Origin: Deltaproteobacteria bacterium
GTDB lineage: Bacteria > Myxococcota_A > Polyangia > Polyangiales > JADJMO01
Direction of reading: 5' to 3'
DNA: 64,000 nt
Assembly: GCA_025363655.1 (NCBI GenBank)
Contig: JANYDK010000083.1
Coordinates: 1-64,000, forward strand
A program made the translations under genes and the position numbers. How positions within the stretch are numbered: the first letter of the stretch is position 1; the number at the start of each line of letters is the position of its first letter. Under the pieces are notes generated by a model. That model saw only the letters and a program-made list of their open reading frames with translations. It did no database searches and had not been told where the DNA came from. Of this stretch, positions 361-7,737 are shown piece after piece.

Positions 361-1965
361 TCACACCGCCATCTTCTCGATTTCGGAGATCCAGTGTCCC
401 TCGCCCAGCTCTCCGCGTGCGAACAGCGAGACGAGGTCGAAGACCACGTCCGAGAAGCCACCGATGTTGAGCACGTCTGCGTCGTCTTGCACTTGCGTCG
501 ACGAGTACGGCTGCAAATCGACGAGCACCAGCTTCGCGCCCGGGTTACGGAGCGAGAAGCGCTTCCACTCCTCTGCCATCGGGGTGCCCCCGCGGGGGTG
601 CCCCGACTTGGAGCGGCCGAAGTCGGACCAGGACTGGTTGTCCGAGACGTAGATGACGAGATCGCCGCTGGCTCCCTTCGCGTTCAAGTGACGGAGCGGC
701 GCGCTGCAGGCCGTGCCCCCCGAAGGAAGACTGGCGAGAAACGCGGCGTTGGTCATCACCGAATCGAAAGGGTTGATGCGACGAGGGAGCGGCACGACGT
801 CGTCGGAGAACGGCACGATCTCCGCCGACGGGTTACGCCGGAGGAAGGCCGCGCTGATCAACGCAGCGACGTCGAGGCAGCGCACGGAGCTGGTGGCTCC
901 CTTGCGGTTGCCGGTGACCGCCGATTGCATCGAGCCCGAGACGTCGGGGCAGAGGATGATCTTCTTCCCCGGCAACGACGGCACGTTCTCGATCGCGATC
1001 TCCATCGCCTCCTGCAGCGCGTGGGTCACCTCGGCGGGGATTCCCTCCGTCCCCGAGGCGGCCTTGTACGCGGCCATCAGCTGATAGGGAAAGACCCGCG
1101 CGCGCCGGATCAAGTCCGGGTTGCGCAGCCTCCCTGCGATCATCGACGCCATCGCCTCGCCGCGCTTTCCCGCGAAAACCCCGTGACGCGCGAGCGTATT
1201 GAGGTTCATGCGGGTCTGCGTCCAGCTCATGTTGTTGGCGATCGACTGCCACTTGTCGTCATCGAGCACGAGCGCGGTCAGCATCTCGAAGGGGACGTCC
1301 GGAAGGTCGCCCTCGCCCTTCTTGAAGGCCTCGAAGGCCTGCACGATCTTGGGGAGGTCGGTCTCCGTCACGTCCTTTCCGATCAGCCATCCGTACAGCG
1401 CCGCTCGGGCCGCGTCCTTGTTTCCCGCGGCGTCGGCCGGCTTCGGACGCACGAGCTTGATGACGTCCGAAAGCGATGGGTCATTGCCCAGCGACTGTCG
1501 GAAAATTGCTTCCGGCGATCGGCTTTGAAACCATCTTTGGCAAAGGCGCTTGGGCGCGGTGCCGAGCGACTTCCGGCCGACCACCCCGCTACGGATGATT
1601 TGCACGAAGTTGCGCAGCATCTTCCCGTTGTCGATGACCCGCGGGAAAACAGCCGGAAGGTGCACGCGACCGTGGGCGGCGAGATACGCGGTGAGGAACG
1701 CGGGCATGTCCTTCATGAAGCCGCGCTCACGCGTGTAGAGGGCCGTCTTGGCGACGAAGTCCGGGGAGACCGCGCTACAGAGCTGTAGCGTCTTCTCCAG
1801 TTGGTCCTTCGCTTGCGCGTAGAACGTGCCGTTGAACGTGCCGGTGACGGCGTACTGCGCGAGCGCCCCCTGCGGGGAGAACGCGTAGGCCTTGCCACCG
1901 GCCTCGTTGGTGTCGGAGGTGAAAGGCGCCTTGGGCGCCGAGGCGAAGAGGTGCTTGTTCGACAT
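361..1965 (-). CDS. rsr: TROVE/Ro60-like RNA-binding protein with vWA domain (Rsr type)
   Basis: A 534-residue protein with the layout of bacterial Ro60 orthologues. The N-terminal TROVE (HEAT-like ring) region spans roughly residues 20-310; it opens with the family pattern of a short leader, then 'FSPQGALAQYAVTGTF' and 'FVAKTALYTRERGFMKDMPAFL'-type helices. A C-terminal vWA domain follows, with a MIDAS DVSGSM at residues 341-346 and a later GGTA and VSDNQSW supplying the other metal ligands. Ro60 proteins bind misfolded ncRNA ends and Y RNAs, some of which carry tRNA-like modules; in bacteria they work with PNPase or next to RtcBA repair genes. No rtcB, rtcA or pnp is in this window. The gene is the last of a 7-kb all-minus block of 15 tRNA genes, 100 bp downstream of tRNA-Arg(CCG), with a hairpin between. 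The ATG at 1965 has an AAGGA motif at a long distance (about 12 nt). Confidence 0.9.
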   Translation of the reverse strand: MSNKHLFASAPKAPFTSDTNEAGGKAYAFSPQGALAQYAVTGTFNGTFYAQAKDQLEKTLQLCSAVSPDFVAKTALYTRERGFMKDMPAFLTAYLAAHGRVHLPAVFPRVIDNGKMLRNFVQIIRSGVVGRKSLGTAPKRLCQRWFQSRSPEAIFRQSLGNDPSLSDVIKLVRPKPADAAGNKDAARAALYGWLIGKDVTETDLPKIVQAFEAFKKGEGDLPDVPFEMLTALVLDDDKWQSIANNMSWTQTRMNLNTLARHGVFAGKRGEAMASMIAGRLRNPDLIRRARVFPYQLMAAYKAASGTEGIPAEVTHALQEAMEIAIENVPSLPGKKIILCPDVSGSMQSAVTGNRKGATSSVRCLDVAALISAAFLRRNPSAEIVPFSDDVVPLPRRINPFDSVMTNAAFLASLPSGGTACSAPLRHLNAKGASGDLVIYVSDNQSWSDFGRSKSGHPRGGTPMAEEWKRFSLRNPGAKLVLVDLQPYSSTQVQDDADVLNIGGFSDVVFDLVSLFARGELGEGHWISEIEKMAV

Positions 1966-2065: not shown

Positions 2066-2141
2066 TGGAGCCCTCGCTGGGAGTCGAACCCAGAACGTCG
2101 AGTGTCGGAAACTCGCGTCGATGGGACCGATCGTCGAGGGC
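2066..2141 (-). tRNA. tRNA-Arg (anticodon CCG), atypical D arm
   Basis: Acceptor GCCCTCG/CGAGGGC is perfect, with discriminator U and encoded CCA (2066-2068). Anticodon stem CGAGT/ACTCG holds loop TTCCGAC, and the T arm CTGGG-TTCGACT-CCCAG is regular. The D arm is poor: in the standard register GATC and CGAC pair at only two of four positions, with a compact loop. It is the tRNA closest to the TROVE gene. Confidence 0.85.
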
Positions 2142-2165
2142 AAGCGTGCACGGGAAGCGTGCGCG

Positions 2166-2241
2166 TGGACCCCCTGCGAGGAATCGAACCTCGACGGCCG
2201 GTTCCGTAGACCGGCGCTCGCGTATCCAGCGAGACAGGGGG
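2166..2241 (-). tRNA. tRNA-Arg (anticodon ACG)
   Basis: All arms fold: acceptor CCCCCTG/CAGGGGG, D stem CTCG/CGAG, anticodon stem CCGGT/ACCGG with loop CTACGGA, T arm CGAGG-TTCGATT-CCTCG. The discriminator is U and CCA is encoded (2166-2168). A34 would need TadA editing to inosine, as is usual for bacterial Arg(ACG). Confidence 0.93.
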
Positions 2242-2269
2242 AATGAGGATGGGGCGGGGAGCGAAGAGC

Positions 2270-2602
2270 TCAGGCCGGCGGGTTGAACTCGACGAACACC
2301 ATCTCCTCGGAAGGCGGTTCGTCGTCGTCGCAACATCCACCCGCACGGGTGACGAGGAGGCCGGCGCCGGGCCGACGGGTCATGTAGTCGTGACCCCACG
2401 CCTCATCGAGCGACAGGCTCCAGAGGTCGTGTCCGAGGGTGCGAAGCTCGTACATCGCCTCGGTGAAGGTCGTTCCCGAGTCGGAGCTCGCTCGGAGCCG
2501 CTCGGTGAGGATCAACGCTAGACGAAGACAGAGAGTCGCGCGGTCGCCTGCGGCGAGAAACGCTTCGAAGGAGAATTCCTTGCCGATCGGTGCGTGGCTC
2601 AT
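2270..2602 (-). CDS. Small protein of unknown function inside the tRNA array
   Basis: A 110-residue acidic, soluble protein that I do not recognise. The first half is helical and rich in leucine ('FLAAGDRATLCLRLALILTE'-type run); the last 20 residues contain a CCDDDE cluster and an acidic end. An AAAGGAAA Shine-Dalgarno lies 5-8 nt before the ATG at 2602, which supports translation. It sits between tRNA-Glu(CTC) and tRNA-Arg(ACG) on the same strand, with its stop 28 nt from the next tRNA 5' end, so it is probably on the same transcript as the tRNAs. No transmembrane segment or known catalytic motif is visible. Confidence 0.65.
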   Translation of the reverse strand: MSHAPIGKEFSFEAFLAAGDRATLCLRLALILTERLRASSDSGTTFTEAMYELRTLGHDLWSLSLDEAWGHDYMTRRPGAGLLVTRAGGCCDDDEPPSEEMVFVEFNPPA

Positions 2603-2639
2603 CGAGATTTCCTTTCGAGGGTACCGGAAAGTCGCGACA

Positions 2640-2717
2640 TGGTGTCCCCAGCGGGAATCGAACCCGCACCCCTCGATCGAGAATCGAGTGTCCTCGCCGT
2701 TAGAACTGATGGGGACG
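2640..2717 (-). tRNA. tRNA-Glu (anticodon CTC)
   Basis: Acceptor GTCCCCA/TGGGGAC, D stem GTTCT/AGGAC, anticodon stem CTCGA/TCGAG with loop TTCTCGA, T arm GCGGG-TTCGATT-CCCGC, discriminator A and encoded CCA (2640-2642). U33 is present. It lies 37 nt upstream of the small protein gene that ends at 2270. Confidence 0.93.
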
Positions 2718-3077
2718 AGAGAGAAAGGCGTTCGCCGTCGTCGTGGTGGACGGCGTCGAACGCTTCGTCAGCGAAGTAGGTCATCGGGTCATTGCCGAGC
2801 CGTCCCTCCCGAGCGCGGTCGCCTGCGCTCATTGGGAAAACTGCACGCCGAGGTCGCTATGCCGGTGCGCTGTCACGCGTTCTTTACTGGATGGCTGCTG
2901 CTAGGCCCACCTCCCGGCGTTCATCGCTTGCTCGGTGTCGGAGCTCACGTGCATGGCTCGGCCGCGCGGTCCCACCCCGCGAGGTTTCCCCAGCTGCACG
3001 AGAATCTCCCGCTCGGCCCTTTGGGTTGTAGACCCGATGGGCATCTGACGAATGTGCGGGGTGTCGACGACACCCGG
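2718..3077. other. 360-bp stretch without a recognised gene
   Basis: This lies between tRNA-Cys and tRNA-Glu(CTC). I find no convincing coding frame or further tRNA. A minus-strand GGG-TCTACAA-CCC loop near 3030 looks like an anticodon arm but has no matching acceptor or T arm. It may be decayed array DNA. Confidence 0.4.
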
Positions 3078-3147
3078 AGAGCAAGAGGAGAATCGAACTC
3101 CCGTGCGACGGTGTTGCAGACCGCGCCCCTCTCCAGAGGACTTGCTC
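3078..3147 (-). tRNA. tRNA-Cys (anticodon GCA), minimal D arm
   Basis: Acceptor GAGCAAG/CTTGCTC is perfect, with discriminator U; the next bases read CCG, so CCA is not fully encoded. Anticodon stem GCGGT/ACCGT (one wobble) holds loop CTGCAAC. T arm is GGGAG-TTCGATT-CTCCT. The D arm is very short, CCTC-TGGA-GAGG with a 4-nt loop, which makes this one of the smallest tRNAs in the array (70 nt to the discriminator). Its 5' end is 1 nt from the stop codon of the tautomerase gene upstream of it. Confidence 0.87.
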
Positions 3148-3148
3148 G

Positions 3149-3355
3149 TTACTCGGTTTTCCTCTTCAGGCGCGCCAGTTTCTTCGGCTCGCCGCCGACG
3201 CTCCAATGCTCGGGCAAGACCTCGCGGAGAATCACCCGAATGCTCTCGCGCGGCACTTCCAGCGTCTCTTCGGCGGCATCGGTGAGCGCGCGAATGAGCG
3301 CATGTTTACGGGCGGCGGTGCGTCCGGCGAGGAGAGAGACGTCGATGATCGGCAT
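3149..3355 (-). CDS. 4-oxalocrotonate tautomerase family protein
   Basis: A 68-residue protein with the classic family outline: catalytic Pro immediately after Met (MPIIDVSLLAGRT), conserved K/R helices, then 'PRESIRVILREV' and a 'HWSVGGE' end. Family members keto-enol tautomerise 2-hydroxymuconate-type dienols in meta-cleavage pathways; the N-terminal proline acts as the base after Met removal. The start is 9 nt downstream of the esterase stop (3365), so the two are probably translated from one mRNA. Its stop at 3149 lies 1 nt from the 5' end of tRNA-Cys, so the mRNA 3' end must be made by RNase P cleavage if they are co-transcribed. Native substrate unknown. Confidence 0.9.
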   Translation of the reverse strand: MPIIDVSLLAGRTAARKHALIRALTDAAEETLEVPRESIRVILREVLPEHWSVGGEPKKLARLKRKTE

Positions 3356-3364
3356 GGCTGAATC

Positions 3365-4162
3365 TCATTTCGGGAGGGTGACGCGGGCGAGGAACTCTTC
3401 GGCTTCGCGCAGCTCGTCGGGGGCGATGGAGTGGGCAAGGCCGGGATAGACGTGCTTTTCGACTTTCGCGCCCCAGGCCTCGAGCGCGCGCACGCTCGGC
3501 TCGACGACCGAGACGGGAATGACGGGGTCGCTGGTGCCGTGTGCGAGGAACACCGGTGTGGTCACCGAGCCCGGAATGACCGTCTGATCGTCGGCGATGC
3601 GTCCGGAGAACATCACCACCGCGGCCGGCGAGGGCGACCGATGCAAGGCGAGATAGCCACCGAGTATCGAGCCTTGGGAGAAGCCGACGACGACCAATCG
3701 TTCATGACCGAGCTTGCGCGCGTCGAGCTGCGCGTCGATCCATCGCGACACCTCGAGGCCGGCTTCGCGGACGCGCACTGCGCGATTGGCGTCGTCGAGG
3801 CCGACGGTGGAGAACCATTGCCGGCCGGTGGGAGCTTGATCGAAGCGATGAAACCCATCGGGCGTGAGAAAGGTGACGTTGGGCAGCGTCGTCGACATTC
3901 TTCGAGCGATGTCGTGGAAGGAGGCCGCGTCGGCGCCGACGCCGTGGAGCATGACCGCGAGATGGGTCGGCGGACCGCTGGTGGCCTCGAGGGTGAGGAT
4001 GTTCGGCGACGTGGGCATCGGCGTGGAACCGGTGCTGGAGGGAATGTCGGGCACGCTGCTCTTCTCCTGAGAATCCTGCGAAATGCGACGTGACGATGGA
4101 CAGCCGAGGAGCGATGCGAAGGCGACGAGCGTCGTCATGCCGTGCAAGCGCGCGTAGGTCAC
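3365..4162 (-). CDS. Secreted alpha/beta-hydrolase esterase (phospholipase/carboxylesterase family), lipoprotein
   Basis: A 265-residue protein. The N-terminus has a signal sequence ending in a lipobox-like ASLLGC near residue 20. The mature part has the carboxylesterase fold: oxyanion 'LHGVGADA', nucleophile elbow GFSQGS, acid region 'AHGTSDPVIP' and catalytic His in 'YPGLAHSI'. Family members hydrolyse short acyl esters or lysophospholipids. It is the upstream partner of the 4-OT gene (9-nt gap). It lies on the same strand as the tRNAs around it; tRNA-Gly(GCC) ends 23 nt upstream of its start. Substrate cannot be read from sequence. Confidence 0.85.
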   Translation of the reverse strand: MTYARLHGMTTLVAFASLLGCPSSRRISQDSQEKSSVPDIPSSTGSTPMPTSPNILTLEATSGPPTHLAVMLHGVGADAASFHDIARRMSTTLPNVTFLTPDGFHRFDQAPTGRQWFSTVGLDDANRAVRVREAGLEVSRWIDAQLDARKLGHERLVVVGFSQGSILGGYLALHRSPSPAAVVMFSGRIADDQTVIPGSVTTPVFLAHGTSDPVIPVSVVEPSVRALEAWGAKVEKHVYPGLAHSIAPDELREAEEFLARVTLPK

Positions 4163-4185
4163 GCGGCCTAGTCTAACGCGCCCTG

Positions 4186-4256
4186 AGCGATGAGCGGGGA
4201 TCGAACCCGCATCCCGAGAATGGCGTTCTCGGATCCTACCGTTGGACGATCATCGC
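4186..4256 (-). tRNA. tRNA-Gly (anticodon GCC) with C33
   Basis: Acceptor GCGATGA/TCATCGC, D stem GTCC/GGAT with loop AACGGTA, and T arm GCGGG-TTCGATC-CCCGC all fold well. The anticodon stem CGAGA/TCTCG encloses ACGCCAT, so position 33 is C rather than the near-universal U and 32/38 are A/U. No CCA is encoded (discriminator U, then CAG). Confidence 0.9.
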
Positions 4257-4314
4257 GATCCCCTGTGTCCTCCGACGCGCGCATCAGCAGTGCGGGCGAA
4301 AGTGGGCACGAAGG

Positions 4315-4390
4315 TGGAGCGGGCAGTCGGAATCGAACCGACATTCACTGGGTGGAAGCCAGGCGTCCTACCGAATTGGACGATGTCCGC
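4315..4390 (-). tRNA. tRNA-Gly (anticodon TCC)
   Basis: Acceptor GCGGACA/TGCCCGC has one A5-C68 mismatch. D stem GTCC/GGAC; anticodon arm CCTGG-CTTCCAC-CCAGT with position 27-43 unpaired; T arm GTCGG-TTCGATT-CCGAC. Discriminator U and CCA encoded (4315-4317). The two mismatches make it slightly degraded compared with a housekeeping tRNA. Confidence 0.88.
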
Positions 4391-4408
4391 GTGAGATGCA
4401 GTGACTAG

Positions 4409-4479
4409 AGGAACGACGGGGATTCGAACCCCGATCTCTCCCGTGCGGGGGGAGCGTCTTCCCGTTGGACGATCGTCCC
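4409..4479 (-). tRNA. tRNA-Ala (anticodon CGC) with C33
   Basis: Acceptor GGGACGA/TCGTTCC contains a G3-U70 wobble, the alanine identity element, which supports the call. Anticodon stem CTCCC/GGGAG holds CCCGCAC, so position 33 is C. T arm is CGGGG-TTCGAAT-CCCCG. The D stem has one mismatch. No CCA is encoded. Confidence 0.9.
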
Positions 4480-4687
4480 AAGTGGCGAGTCGCAAACTTC
4501 CGACGAGGGGCGTGGAGATCGCCGTCGCATTGCGCCGAGATGTTTCTCGAACGCCGCTCGACCCGCCTGCATCGCTTTCGTGATGCACGCAATCGCTGGA
4601 TCGCCTTCGAGCTCGCGCCCGTACGACGATGTTCGCTACCTTAGGACCGTTATAGTTACGTGTAATCCCCACTACATTCGGAAGCAG

Positions 4688-4759
4688 CGCTCCGTACGGG
4701 GATCGAACCCGTCTCACCCGGTAGACAGCCGGGCTGCGACACCAGTCGCATCACGAAGC
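4688..4759 (-). tRNA. tRNA-Asp (anticodon GTC), pyrimidine 37
   Basis: Acceptor GCTTCGT/ACGGAGC (one T-G wobble), discriminator G as expected for Asp. D stem TGCG/CGCA, T arm ACGGG-TTCGATC-CCCGT. The anticodon loop CTGTCTA has U at position 37, where a purine is almost always found. No CCA encoded. Confidence 0.9.
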
Positions 4760-4786
4760 ATCGGTATTTTCGTTTCGAACGAAGGA

Positions 4787-4861
4787 TGGTGTGACGTAGG
4801 GGAATCGAACCCCTCTCCGCCGGTTCACGGCCGGCCCTCGTGCCCAGACGAGTAACGCCAC
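4787..4861 (-). tRNA. tRNA-His (anticodon GTG), no encoded G-1, C33
   Basis: Acceptor GTGGCGT/ACGTCAC, D stem CTCG/CGAG, anticodon stem GCCGG/CCGGC with loop CCGTGAA (C at 33), T arm AGGGG-TTCGATT-CCCCT, CCA encoded (4787-4789). The base before G1 is C and the discriminator is A. Most bacterial tRNA-His genes encode G-1 opposite C73, the main HisRS identity pair; alphaproteobacteria are the known exception with no G-1 and A73. Confidence 0.9.
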
Positions 4862-4863
4862 GG

Positions 4864-4938
4864 TGGGTCGTCGAGGAATCGAACCTCGTTCTCCCGGGCT
4901 TCAGCCGGGCGCTGTGTCACCAGACTAGCTCACGACCC
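4864..4938 (-). tRNA. tRNA-Phe (anticodon GAA)
   Basis: Acceptor GGGTCGT/ACGACCC, discriminator A as expected for Phe, anticodon stem CCCGG/CCGGG with loop CTGAAGC, T arm CGAGG-TTCGATT-CCTCG. The D stem pairs at three positions (GCT/AGC). Only 2 nt separate its discriminator from the 5' end of tRNA-His, so there is no room for an encoded CCA (CCG follows) or a separate promoter. Confidence 0.9.
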
Positions 4939-4965
4939 AATTGCACATTTCTGCAGACGATAGGG

Positions 4966-5040
4966 TGCCCCCGACGGGATTCGAACCCGCAATACCCCGA
5001 TCGAAAGTCGGGTGTCCTGAAGCCGTTAGACGACGGGGGC
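4966..5040 (-). tRNA. tRNA-Glu (anticodon TTC)
   Basis: Acceptor GCCCCCG/CGGGGGC, anticodon stem CCCGA/TCGGG with loop CTTTCGA, T arm GCGGG-TTCGAAT-CCCGT. D-arm sequence (GTCT...AGGAC) is the usual bacterial tRNA-Glu form. Discriminator A; CCC follows instead of CCA. Confidence 0.93.
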
Positions 5041-5056
5041 GATATGCACACATGAG

Positions 5057-5128
5057 AGCCCTCGCCCGGAATTGCACCGAGTTCTCCCGGGTACGGGCCG
5101 GGCGCTCCACTGTTCGAGCTGCAAGGGC
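5057..5128 (-). tRNA. tRNA-Thr (anticodon CGT), altered elbow and C33
   Basis: Acceptor GCCCTTG/CGAGGGC (one wobble), D stem GCTC/GAGC, anticodon stem CCCGG/CCGGG with loop CCCGTAC (C33). The T loop reads TGCAATT instead of TTCGAAT, giving G at 55, and the D loop GAACAGTG lacks the G18-G19 pair; these are the residues that normally interlock at the tRNA elbow. Discriminator U, no CCA. It may be a degenerate or specialised tRNA. Its 5' end is 5 nt from the acyl-CoA ligase stop. Confidence 0.78.
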
Positions 5129-5133
5129 GAAAG

Positions 5134-6684
5134 TCAGGGACGCGCGCGGAGGAGAAACCGTTGGATCTTCCCGGTCGCGGTCTTGGGGAGCTCGTCGAGG
5201 AAGGTGATGAAGCGCGGACACTTGTAGGGCGCGAGGCGCTCCTTGGCGTGGGCGCGGAGACTCTCGACGAGCGCGGGAGAGCTTGAAATTCCAGCGCGGA
5301 GTGTGATGAAGGCGTGGGCCTTGGTGAGGCCGTCGTCGTCCTCGGCGCCGACGACCGCGCACTCGAGGACGCTCGGATGAGCGAGAAGCGCGCCCTCGAC
5401 CTCGACCGGAGAGACCCAGATGCCGCCGGTCTTGAGCATGTCGTCGCTCCGGCCGCCGTGGAAGAAGAAGCCGTCTTCGTCTTCGAGGTATTTGTCGCCG
5501 GTGCGAATCCACTCGCCGCGGAGCGCGTGCTTGGTGGCCTCGTGCTTGTTCCAATACATCGCCATCGTCGAGTCGCCGCGGACGAGGAGGTCGCCGAGCT
5601 CGCCGCGCGGGACGTCGCCGCCGGTCTCGTCGACGAGTCGCAGGTCGTAGCCGGGTACGGGTTTTCCCGTGGATCCAGGGCGAATTGCGTCGGGTCGGGA
5701 GGAGAGAAAGATGTGACAGATTTCGGTGGAGCCGATGCCGTCGAGGATGGTGAGCCCAGTGCGTTCGCGCCAGCGCTCGAAGATCGCCGCGGGCAAAGCC
5801 TCACCGGCGCTGGCGCAGGCGCGCACGGAGGAGAAGTCCGCTTCCATGCCTTGGTCGATGGCCGCGAGCATGTTGGCGTAGGCAGTTGGTACGCCGAAAA
5901 AGAGCGTCGGCCGGTGACGTTTGACCTCGGCGAACACCGCCTCTGGGGTCGGGCGCCCCTCGTAGAGGACGGCCGAGGCGCCGACGTGCAACGGGAAGTA
6001 CTGCGCGTTGCCGAGGCCGTAGGCGAAGAAGAGCTTGGCGATGGAGAAGCAGCGATCGGTCTCGGTGATCTGGAGAATCGAGCGGCCATAGGTCTCGCAG
6101 CAGATCCACATGTCGTGCTGGAGGTGGACGACGCCCTTCGGCTCGCCCGTGGTGCCGCTCGAATAGAGGAGGAAGGCGAAGCCGTCGCGGTGGGTCGCCG
6201 CGTAGGCCTCGATCGGCGTTGCGGCTTCGAGCGCTGCGATTGCTTCGGCGATGTTGAAGGTCACCGCTCCTTCGGCGACCAGGGCTTTTGCCTGGGAGGC
6301 GTCGACGATGGTCTCGTCGAACACGACGAGCCGGGCGTCGGAGTCGCGAAAGATGGTGCGATGGTCGTGCTCCTTGAGGAGCGTGTTGATGGGCACGGCG
6401 ACGGCGCCGAGGGCGATGGCGCCCCAGAAGCCGATCGAGAGAAGAGGAGAGTCGCGGAGGACGAGCGCCACGCGATCGCCGCGATGAACGCCGGCCGCAC
6501 GGAGCGCGCCTGCGAACTTCCGCACTGCGCGATCGAGCTCGTCGTAGGTCATCGTCGCGTCGGCTGCTTTGCCCAGCTCGCTCGAAACGATGGCGACCCG
6601 TGAGCCCCGTCCTTCGCGAAGATGCCTTCCGACGAAGTGCTCGGCGGCGTTGAAGACCTCGGGCAAATGTTCACTCGCGCGCAT
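5134..6684 (-). CDS. Benzoate-CoA ligase family acyl-CoA synthetase
   Basis: A 516-residue ANL-superfamily enzyme that would activate an aromatic or related acid to its CoA thioester via an acyl-AMP. Visible motifs are the P-loop YSSGTTGEPKG (A3), GIGSTEICHIFLS (A5), 'RTGDKY' (A7), 'GRSDDMLKTGGIWVSP' (A8) and 'PKTATGKIQR' with the A10 lysine near the C-terminus. The GSTEICHIFLSSRP and PVPGYDLRLVDE segments are typical of the benzoate-CoA ligase branch. Length is normal for that branch (about 510-530). It lies between tRNA-Asn (28 nt gap before the mature start) and tRNA-Thr (5 nt after its stop). The 4-OT and esterase in the same block hint at aromatic degradation, but no ring-opening genes are present. 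Confidence 0.9.
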   Translation of the reverse strand: MRASEHLPEVFNAAEHFVGRHLREGRGSRVAIVSSELGKAADATMTYDELDRAVRKFAGALRAAGVHRGDRVALVLRDSPLLSIGFWGAIALGAVAVPINTLLKEHDHRTIFRDSDARLVVFDETIVDASQAKALVAEGAVTFNIAEAIAALEAATPIEAYAATHRDGFAFLLYSSGTTGEPKGVVHLQHDMWICCETYGRSILQITETDRCFSIAKLFFAYGLGNAQYFPLHVGASAVLYEGRPTPEAVFAEVKRHRPTLFFGVPTAYANMLAAIDQGMEADFSSVRACASAGEALPAAIFERWRERTGLTILDGIGSTEICHIFLSSRPDAIRPGSTGKPVPGYDLRLVDETGGDVPRGELGDLLVRGDSTMAMYWNKHEATKHALRGEWIRTGDKYLEDEDGFFFHGGRSDDMLKTGGIWVSPVEVEGALLAHPSVLECAVVGAEDDDGLTKAHAFITLRAGISSSPALVESLRAHAKERLAPYKCPRFITFLDELPKTATGKIQRFLLRARP

Positions 6685-6715
6685 CGGCCCATGGAATCAC
6701 AGGAGTCGCGCGTTG

Positions 6716-6788
6716 CTCCAGCGGATGGATTCGAACCATCGCGGACGCCGGTTAACAGCCGGCCGCTCTGCCTCTGAGCTACGCTGGA
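6716..6788 (-). tRNA. tRNA-Asn (anticodon GTT)
   Basis: A fully canonical tRNA: acceptor TCCAGCG/CGCTGGA, regular D arm with GCTC/GAGC, anticodon stem GCCGG/CCGGC with loop CTGTTAA, T arm GATGG-TTCGAAT-CCATC, discriminator G as expected for Asn. CCA is not encoded. Confidence 0.96.
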
Positions 6789-6810
6789 AAGAACTGGAAA
6801 AAGTCGACAT

Positions 6811-6882
6811 TCTCGTGTCGCCAAAGATTGCTGCGCAACTTTGGCCGTTTCGGTCAATCTCGCTGCGCTCGGTTGCCGAAAC
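6811..6882. repeat. Dispersed double-hairpin palindromic element, copy B
   Basis: Hairpin 1 is CCAAAG (6821-6826) with CTTTGG (6839-6844), strengthened by TTGC/GCAA inside. Hairpin 2 is TTTCGG (6848-6853) with CCGAAA (6876-6881), enclosing the conserved core TCAATCTCGCTGCGCTCGG. The left edge carries TCTCGTGTCG, matching the TCTCGTTTCG seen at the third locus. The element occupies part of the 386-bp gap between tRNA-Asn and tRNA-Lys(CTT), the rest of which (6883-7174) shows no convincing gene. Confidence 0.8.
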
Positions 6883-7174
6883 TGAAACGGGTGCCGGCGA
6901 GAGCGCGAACGAACGCGCCCCGCACGAGGATGCGAAGGACGACTCGGGTGAGCGCGGCCACCGGACGCGAAAATCGCGTCGCGAGGGCGAGCTCTCCCTT
7001 GAGCCGAAGCTGAGGAGAGCGCGCGCCCATGCAGGAACCCCTGCAGGTCGAGTCGTCCATCGAGTCGCCGCGCGAAGGACGAAATCGTCCCTCGCCGGCA
7101 CCCTATGGATGCCAGGTTGTCAAACATCAGTGCCCTCGTGAACGAGAGCGAGCGTCGCGGCACGGAGTGCCGAG

Positions 7175-7248
7175 TGGGTCCAGAGGGAGTCGAACCCTCA
7201 CGATTCCCGGGTAAGAGCCGGGTGCGCTACCAGTTGCGCGATGGACCC
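7175..7248 (-). tRNA. tRNA-Lys (anticodon CTT)
   Basis: Acceptor GGGTCCA/TGGACCC, D arm GCGC/GCGC-type with GG in the loop, anticodon stem CCCGG/CCGGG with loop CTCTTAC, T arm GAGGG-TTCGACT-CCCTC, discriminator A. No CCA is encoded (CTC follows). Confidence 0.95.
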
Positions 7249-7295
7249 CTGCCGCGAAGAGCGCGCACGAATGCGAGCTCGCGGGCGGTGGCGAG

Positions 7296-7368
7296 TGGGG
7301 CGCGAGGGACTCGAACCCTCACGATGTCGGGTTAAAAGCCCGCTGCTCTACCATTGAGCGAGCGCCCC
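7296..7368 (-). tRNA. tRNA-Lys (anticodon TTT), first tRNA of the array
   Basis: Acceptor GGGGCGC/GCGCCCC, regular D arm (GCTC...GAGC), anticodon loop CTTTTAA on a stem with 27-43 unpaired, T arm GAGGG-TTCGAGT-CCCTC, discriminator A, no CCA. It is the most upstream tRNA of the minus-strand block; no clear promoter could be read in the 100 bp above it. Confidence 0.95.
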
Positions 7369-7737
7369 ATGGGTTGGGCGGCGACGGGAAATCACGTTTG
7401 AGTGCCATGAGCTTGCACCTGGAAATGGTGTTTGATGTGTCGGCCACGCCGACACTCCCAGGGAGCTCGGCGGGTGTTACGGAAGCGTCGTCAGTCCCGG
7501 ATTCGGATGGCCCGGGCGACTTTCGAGACCGGAGTTCCAATCGGGCGGGGCGGGAGGCTTGGGATAGCCTCGTCGCGGACCGCGGAGCGCACCTTGGAAT
7601 GTCGAACACGCCCCATCGGAGCGCGTCGCCTGCAATTTTCGCTCGAAGAGGGTGGACATGGGAGGAGCCTCGGGGTGAATGCAACGTGAGAAACGAGTCG
7701 GGAAATCTCGGGGCGGGAGCCAGACCACAAAAGCACC
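7369..7737. other. Unassigned stretch upstream of the tRNA array
   Basis: This 369-bp stretch lies between the array and the small transcription unit. I see no convincing gene. Short tRNA-like strings near 7520-7550 do not assemble into acceptor, D, anticodon and T arms. It should hold the promoter for tRNA-Lys(TTT), but no good -35/-10 pair stands out. Confidence 0.35.

Follow-up and report, generated by a model that had tools for sequence, protein, structure and literature searches.

U33 is near-universal in elongator tRNAs, and the locus described here raises the question why four tRNA genes in close vicinity carry C at this position. It lies within a stretch of 64,000 nucleotides (the window), which is the start of contig C58 of assembly G000 (9.0 Mb, 96% complete). 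An earlier note on this DNA had listed 15 tRNA genes, with C33 in tRNA-Gly(GCC), Ala(CGC), His(GTG) and Thr(CGT) and with U37 in Asp(GTC). It had considered selection, shared relaxation and a non-translational role as possible reasons.

The C33 genes and their array

ARAGORN alone identified 13 tRNA genes within the first 7.4 kb of the window and Infernal added two, Thr(CGT) and Asp(GTC), in agreement with the count of 15. Together they form an array of 5.3 kb on a single strand (minus, 2066–7368). All four genes reported to carry C33 were confirmed on this strand with the anticodon loops noted before. tRNA-Gly(GCC) (4186–4256, loop ACGCCAT) and tRNA-Ala(CGC) (4409–4479, loop CCCGCAC, G3:U70 retained) matched RF00005 in cmscan with 49.0 and 49.9 bits, respectively. 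The corresponding match of tRNA-Thr(CGT) (5057–5128, loop CCCGTAC) amounts to 37.9 bits, and this gene additionally has G55 in the T loop (TGCAATT). tRNA-His(GTG) (4787–4861, both limits being approximate, loop CCGTGAA) has an encoded CCA and A73 and is devoid of G-1; it is called by ARAGORN, and cmscan returned only a weak tRNA-Sec match of 26.3 bits, under the threshold of that family. ARAGORN passes over weak genes, and Thr(CGT) was missed at its default threshold and showed up in a much relaxed scan; at 60% threshold ARAGORN returned mainly noise, and this run was discarded. tRNA-Asp(GTC) (4688–4760, minus strand, Infernal) has U33, and its loop CTGTCTA bears out U37. U37 in place of A37 recurs in the array Asp(GTC) genes of G002, G089, G289 and G348 as well as in phage Mx1.

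The anticodon stem closing the C33 loop is a perfect 5 bp helix in Gly, Ala, His and Thr. A register shift restoring U33 was ruled out, as position 32 is occupied by A or C in each gene. Thermodynamic folding gave the cloverleaf as the minimum-energy fold for Gly, His and Asp. For Ala and Thr the minimum-energy fold is not a cloverleaf and both calls rest on the covariance model, which counts against the explanation favoured below, as does the lack of the G-1:C73 signal in the array tRNA-His of the window.

The other ten array genes have U33 and are likewise located on the minus strand. Arg(CCG) (2066–2141) and Arg(ACG) (2166–2241) were called by ARAGORN, and Glu(CTC) (2643–2716), Cys(GCA) (3078–3147), Gly(TCC) (4318–4390), Phe(GAA) (4864–4938), Glu(TTC) (4966–5040), Asn(GTT) (6716–6788), Lys(CTT) (7175–7248) and Lys(TTT) (7296–7368), the first gene of the array, by ARAGORN and Infernal. 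The array is interrupted by genes for a carboxylesterase-like hydrolase (3365–4162) and an AMP-binding ligase (5134–6684), for which no counterpart was noted within the arrays of relatives. Beside tRNA-Asn, at about 6810–6883, lies an element of about 74 bases with at least 40 copies in the genome at 89–96% identity, partly in tandem (contigs C14, C51, C70 and C145).

Further array genes are found at the end of contig C94. On the strand that would extend the array, it encodes Val(GAC), Leu(CAG), Tyr, Ile, Arg(TCT) and Pro(TGG), along with weaker Ser and Val matches; C33 is present in Val(GAC) (TCGACAT) and Pro(TGG) (TCTGGGC). Contigs C94 and C58 likely abut, because the order Cys, Glu(CTC), Arg, Arg, then Val, Leu is common with the relative G004. 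The whole array thus probably comprises about 25 divergent tRNAs, composed of the 15 in the window and those on C94.

For comparison, the housekeeping tRNAs of G000 were drawn from search matches in what is, like the other assemblies, a draft genome. Each of the 40 housekeeping tRNAs found has U33. The genome-wide search suggested in the earlier note showed that canonical U33 copies of all four anticodons exist outside the array, with the loops TTGCCAA for Gly (contig C108), ATCGCAC for Ala, TTGTGGT for His and TTCGTAA for Thr. It is thereby ruled out that the array holds the sole copies of these anticodons, and the array, a dense one-strand tRNA array unit, is additional to the housekeeping set. 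Cys and Glu(TTC) are missing outside the array of G000. This is probably an assembly gap, because the non-array set of G340, a nearly closed genome of the same order (2 contigs), has both; its 45 non-array tRNAs all have U33.

Distribution of C33 and integrity of the array tRNAs

Across the arrays of 21 genomes from 7 families, C33 occurs in 68 of 409 tRNAs, as opposed to none of 85 non-array tRNAs (40 of G000 and 45 of G340; Fisher p = 1.2e-6, to be taken as indicative since the genes are related). Other non-U bases at position 33 of the 409 array tRNAs are A and G, with two cases each. The distribution over isoacceptors is uneven. C33 was observed in 9/10 Pro(GGG), 6/7 Val(GAC), 4/6 Val(CAC), 9/16 Gly(GCC), 5/12 His, 6/15 Tyr and 6/15 Leu(GAG), and in none of the Lys (26), Gln (21), Asn (19), Asp (16), Arg(ACG) (13) and Cys (9) genes (0/104 together). 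Array Gly(GCC) carries C33 in each of the four arrays from the window's family, so that the earlier idea of four independent local changes has to be abandoned; the same base is further found in three of four arrays of family f12 and once each in f2 and f7.

Plasmid arrays found via the HNH gene (see below) have C33 as well, namely in Gly(GCC) of Nostoc, Val(GAC) and Phe of Acidiphilium, Pro(GGG) and Leu(GAG) of Methylibium, and His and Ser(GCT) of Variovorax. With the C33-prone isoacceptors picked from the chromosomal arrays alone, C33 is seen in 5/26 of these tRNAs in the plasmid arrays versus 2/155 of the others (p = 7e-4). Between the two processes proposed earlier, selection is favoured: C33 is isoacceptor-specific, recurs across families and plasmid arrays, and resides in intact tRNAs. 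Plain relaxation fares worse because it should have reached Lys, Gln, Asn, Asp, Arg(ACG) and Cys as well.

A full anticodon stem is present in 65 of the 68 C33 tRNAs, and the GC content of these stems is the highest (0.81 versus 0.76 and 0.73). Between same-family array orthologues, both sides of a stem pair have changed 320 times and one side 56 times, a ratio conditional on only called pairs being counted. G3:U70 is retained in 25 of 27 array Ala tRNAs, and position C56 is retained in the array tRNAs. The discriminator base is kept with few exceptions in Leu, Val, Tyr, Ile, Asp, Ser, Cys, Trp, Thr and Pro, while it is variable in His. In terms of amino-acid coverage, the array of G348 reaches 20/20 and those of G003 and G004 reach 19. 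As most discriminator bases fit the isotype and Ala G3:U70 persists, a wholly non-translational role is less likely than the earlier note allowed for. Judged by their intact stems, the C33 array tRNAs are maintained and not decaying. The array tRNAs form a set separate from the housekeeping tRNAs, with stems evidently kept by paired substitutions and most of the predicted charging signals retained.

A second deviation concerns the elbow. G55 occurs in 42 array genes, and C at this position in one. The GG of the D-loop is lost, typically to AG, in 35 of the 42 G55 genes versus 4 of the 366 others. The combination is found in several families (L122–L141, L078, L079) and is evidently a coupled change of interacting elbow positions.

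RNA-repair neighbours and the upstream region

Directly downstream of the array tRNAs, after tRNA-Arg(CCG), lies rsr (361–1965, minus strand), encoding a Ro60-like protein of 534 aa. The protein matched vWA_Ro60 with 55.8 bits and TROVE with 22.9 bits (cut-off 23) and qualifies as a Ro60 orthologue. It is about 50–52% identical to TROVE proteins encoded between rtcR and rtcB on Methylosinus and Rhizobium plasmids, and 63–65% identical to Rsr within the arrays of the same-family genomes G002–G004. Two Rsr lineages of about 24% identity (L122–L131 and L136 versus the window gene at 361–1965) each occur inside tRNA arrays, which suggests either replacement or repeated association.

Contig C94 holds further genes of interest among its array tRNAs. 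These comprise an RtcB ligase (PF01139, 292 bits), a Band_7/slipin gene, an HNH endonuclease and a YrlA-like Y RNA. The latter scored 62.4 bits, under the Rfam gathering score of 69, and candidates in three other arrays scored 36–54 bits. Near other arrays, RtcB was not found by tblastn, L132 excepted. The same-family arrays of G002, G003 and G004 hold Rsr and YrlA-like RNAs, and a similar gene order was observed in four species of the family. Inside the arrays of L080 (4801–7347) and L081 (6479–9095), a two-gene pair encodes a protein of 524–562 aa and an ARPP-1 protein; the G003 and G004 arrays contain an ARPP-1 gene.

On the level of the phylum, TROVE genes occur in 38 of 377 genomes, many of them flanked by tRNA arrays, the larger of which have about 20–35 genes. 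tRNA arrays around Rsr are found in the window's family and in six other families. The HNH gene (L078, 5656–6171, and homologues) is present in most arrays and is also encoded in phage Mx1; in the majority of cases checked it adjoins a Leu tRNA. Relatives of this gene mark tRNA arrays on plasmids of Nostoc, mycobacteria, Acidiphilium, Methylibium and Variovorax; several plasmid and phage HNH matches are not located near tRNA arrays.

Just upstream of the first array tRNA, a candidate operator/promoter doublet TCAAACACCATT...TCAAACGTGATT was identified at 7390–7435 (minus strand). When five genomes of the family were searched for this pattern, it turned up where the array begins in G000, G002 and G003, with one unrelated repeat besides, and the reversed-pattern control gave 0 matches. 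G004 has one clear copy of the element. The search for a sigma-54 promoter upstream of the arrays revealed nothing convincing. RtcR is above threshold in 14 of 20 array genomes, and the array and Rsr of G261 adjoin rtcR. Within the window's family, RtcR was found in none of G000, G003 and G004, and G002 gave a sub-threshold match only. The absence of RtcR from this family and of a sigma-54 site counts against the explanation favoured below.

A proposed spare tRNA set and competing explanations

With moderate confidence, the four genes are attributed to a chromosomal, stress-deployed spare tRNA set within an RNA-repair island (array, Rsr, YrlA-like RNA, RtcB and HNH), in which C33 perhaps serves to evade tRNA-cutting toxins. 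Such a set would probably keep protein synthesis going when normal tRNAs are damaged. This reading is proposed because the island joins parts of the Anabaena trn and Salmonella rsr systems and the loop changes resemble those of phage tRNAs. The array would be silent or low until translation or tRNA-damage stress sets in, and would then be transcribed and supply charged tRNAs during the repair or clearance of damaged housekeeping tRNAs. With less certainty, C33 may remove part of the sequence or U-turn shape that tRNA-cutting toxins recognise in anticodon loops, at a cost in decoding speed that could be acceptable in an emergency set. The non-consensus loops, together with the elbows, probably make the set a poor nuclease target. 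Nuclease escape fits the RNA-repair neighbourhood (Rsr, YrlA-like RNA, RtcB, and RtcR at one array) and the published analogues, and it would be the most economical reason for a specific and recurrent departure from U33, next to which relaxed constraint and decoding tuning are possible reasons of lower probability. PrrC and colicin E5 are the best-known anticodon nucleases, with targets including Lys, Asn and Asp; that C33 spares these tRNAs counts against nuclease escape. A broader version, according to which the phylum carries a parallel tRNA set unlike the housekeeping tRNAs at U33 and the G18–U55 elbow pair, co-encoded with RNA repair, and translation switches to this nuclease-resistant pool during attack, is put forward tentatively and is somewhat doubtful.

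Alternatively, a rarely used set under weak decoding selection may simply tolerate U33 to C33 transitions. Such relaxed constraint would be in line with the much faster divergence of the array tRNAs, which show a mean identity of 0.68 among orthologues of one family compared to 0.87 for housekeeping tRNAs between families, and with the predominance of C, the transition product (68 versus two A and two G). Conversely, the strong isoacceptor specificity, the recurrence in unrelated plasmids and the retention of stems, charging signals and C56 are difficult to reconcile with it, and position 55 shows the transversion to G, coupled to the loss of the D-loop GG, instead of the transition to C. We regard relaxed constraint as unlikely. 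Less likely still is a tuning of decoding, in which C33 weakens over-strong codon pairing or alters the reading-frame or wobble behaviour of certain anticodons. C33 is indeed commonest with G34 (48/171) and somewhat more common with G/C at positions 35–36 (26/110 with both, 12/107 with none), and its anticodon stems are the GC-richest; yet the strong Arg(CCG), Ala(TGC) and Thr(GGT) are without C33, whereas the weak Tyr(GTA) often has it.

The two remaining alternatives are both considered very unlikely. Array tRNAs could represent non-translational RNAs, that is, tRNA-shaped decoys or scaffold ligands for Rsr/PNPase or nucleases, as in the case of YrlA. Their position next to Rsr and YrlA-like RNAs agrees with this, and elbow changes of the G55/D-loop kind mark the non-translational tRNA-Gly of Staphylococcus. 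Near-complete amino-acid coverage, conserved anticodons, G3:U70 and the discriminator bases argue for a role in translation. As for a cargo array left behind by a phage or plasmid and devoid of host function, related Rsr and HNH genes accompany the tRNA arrays of Myxococcus phage Mx1, HNH-marked arrays exist on plasmids, and ordinary metabolic genes interrupt the array in the window's genome. The gene order of the arrays, which is similar among four species of the family, the Rsr arrays in six other families and the paired stem substitutions speak against such a remnant.

The arrays add hundreds of intact natural tRNAs in which C33 is common, limited to certain isoacceptors, and confined to extra sets, being absent from the housekeeping sets checked. 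They make the role of U33 in living cells testable, including that of a handle for tRNA-cutting toxins. Linkage of the arrays to Rsr, Y RNA, RtcB and, once, RtcR ties bacterial tRNA arrays to RNA damage and gives both a testable function. The link between array and Rsr may have been described before.

Among known systems, the trn operon of Anabaena sp. PCC 7120 comprises 26 tRNAs, stays silent as long as translation is not under stress and has a repressor in common with rtcB, HNH and slipin genes (PMC10272220). Common to both is a second tRNA set besides the housekeeping one, linked to rtcB, HNH and slipin genes; moreover, Nostoc plasmid arrays carry a related HNH gene, and one has C33 in Gly(GCC) as observed here. 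The Anabaena operon is plasmid-borne and repressed by TrcR, whereas the present array is chromosomal (large non-plasmid contigs) and physically linked to Rsr, YrlA-like RNA and RtcB; its tRNAs show C33 far more often, along with coupled elbow changes. The Salmonella rsr-yrlBA-rtcBA operon is induced by cleaved tRNAs (PMC7790460). This operon and the alphaproteobacterial rtcR-rsr-rtcB loci resemble the island in Rsr (52% identity to the alphaproteobacterial protein), RtcB and the candidate YrlA-like RNA. The alphaproteobacterial loci have no annotated tRNA array, and none is mentioned in the searched text of the Salmonella paper (PMC7790460). In contrast, 20–35 tRNAs are added here, and the window's family has no RtcR above threshold.

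Mycobacterial tRNA array units, which hold about 30 tRNAs and an HNH endonuclease (PMC5966550, PMC9569102), are similar in size and in the HNH gene. They differ in being tied to GOLLD RNA, phages and plasmids, and the tested plasmid array of Mycolicibacterium alvei has no C33. Phage tRNAs show anticodon-loop changes at nuclease sites (PMC10264068) and likewise constitute divergent extra tRNAs with altered anticodon loops; Myxococcus phage Mx1 additionally encodes an Rsr of 47% identity and the HNH gene. Unlike phage arrays, those described here lie on the chromosome and show synteny across the host family. C33 is found in 0 of 37 tRNAs of Mx1, which counts against the proposed spare set, but in virus Rctr197k (L211, KX853510.1), which has no G55, 5 of 11 tRNAs carry C33.
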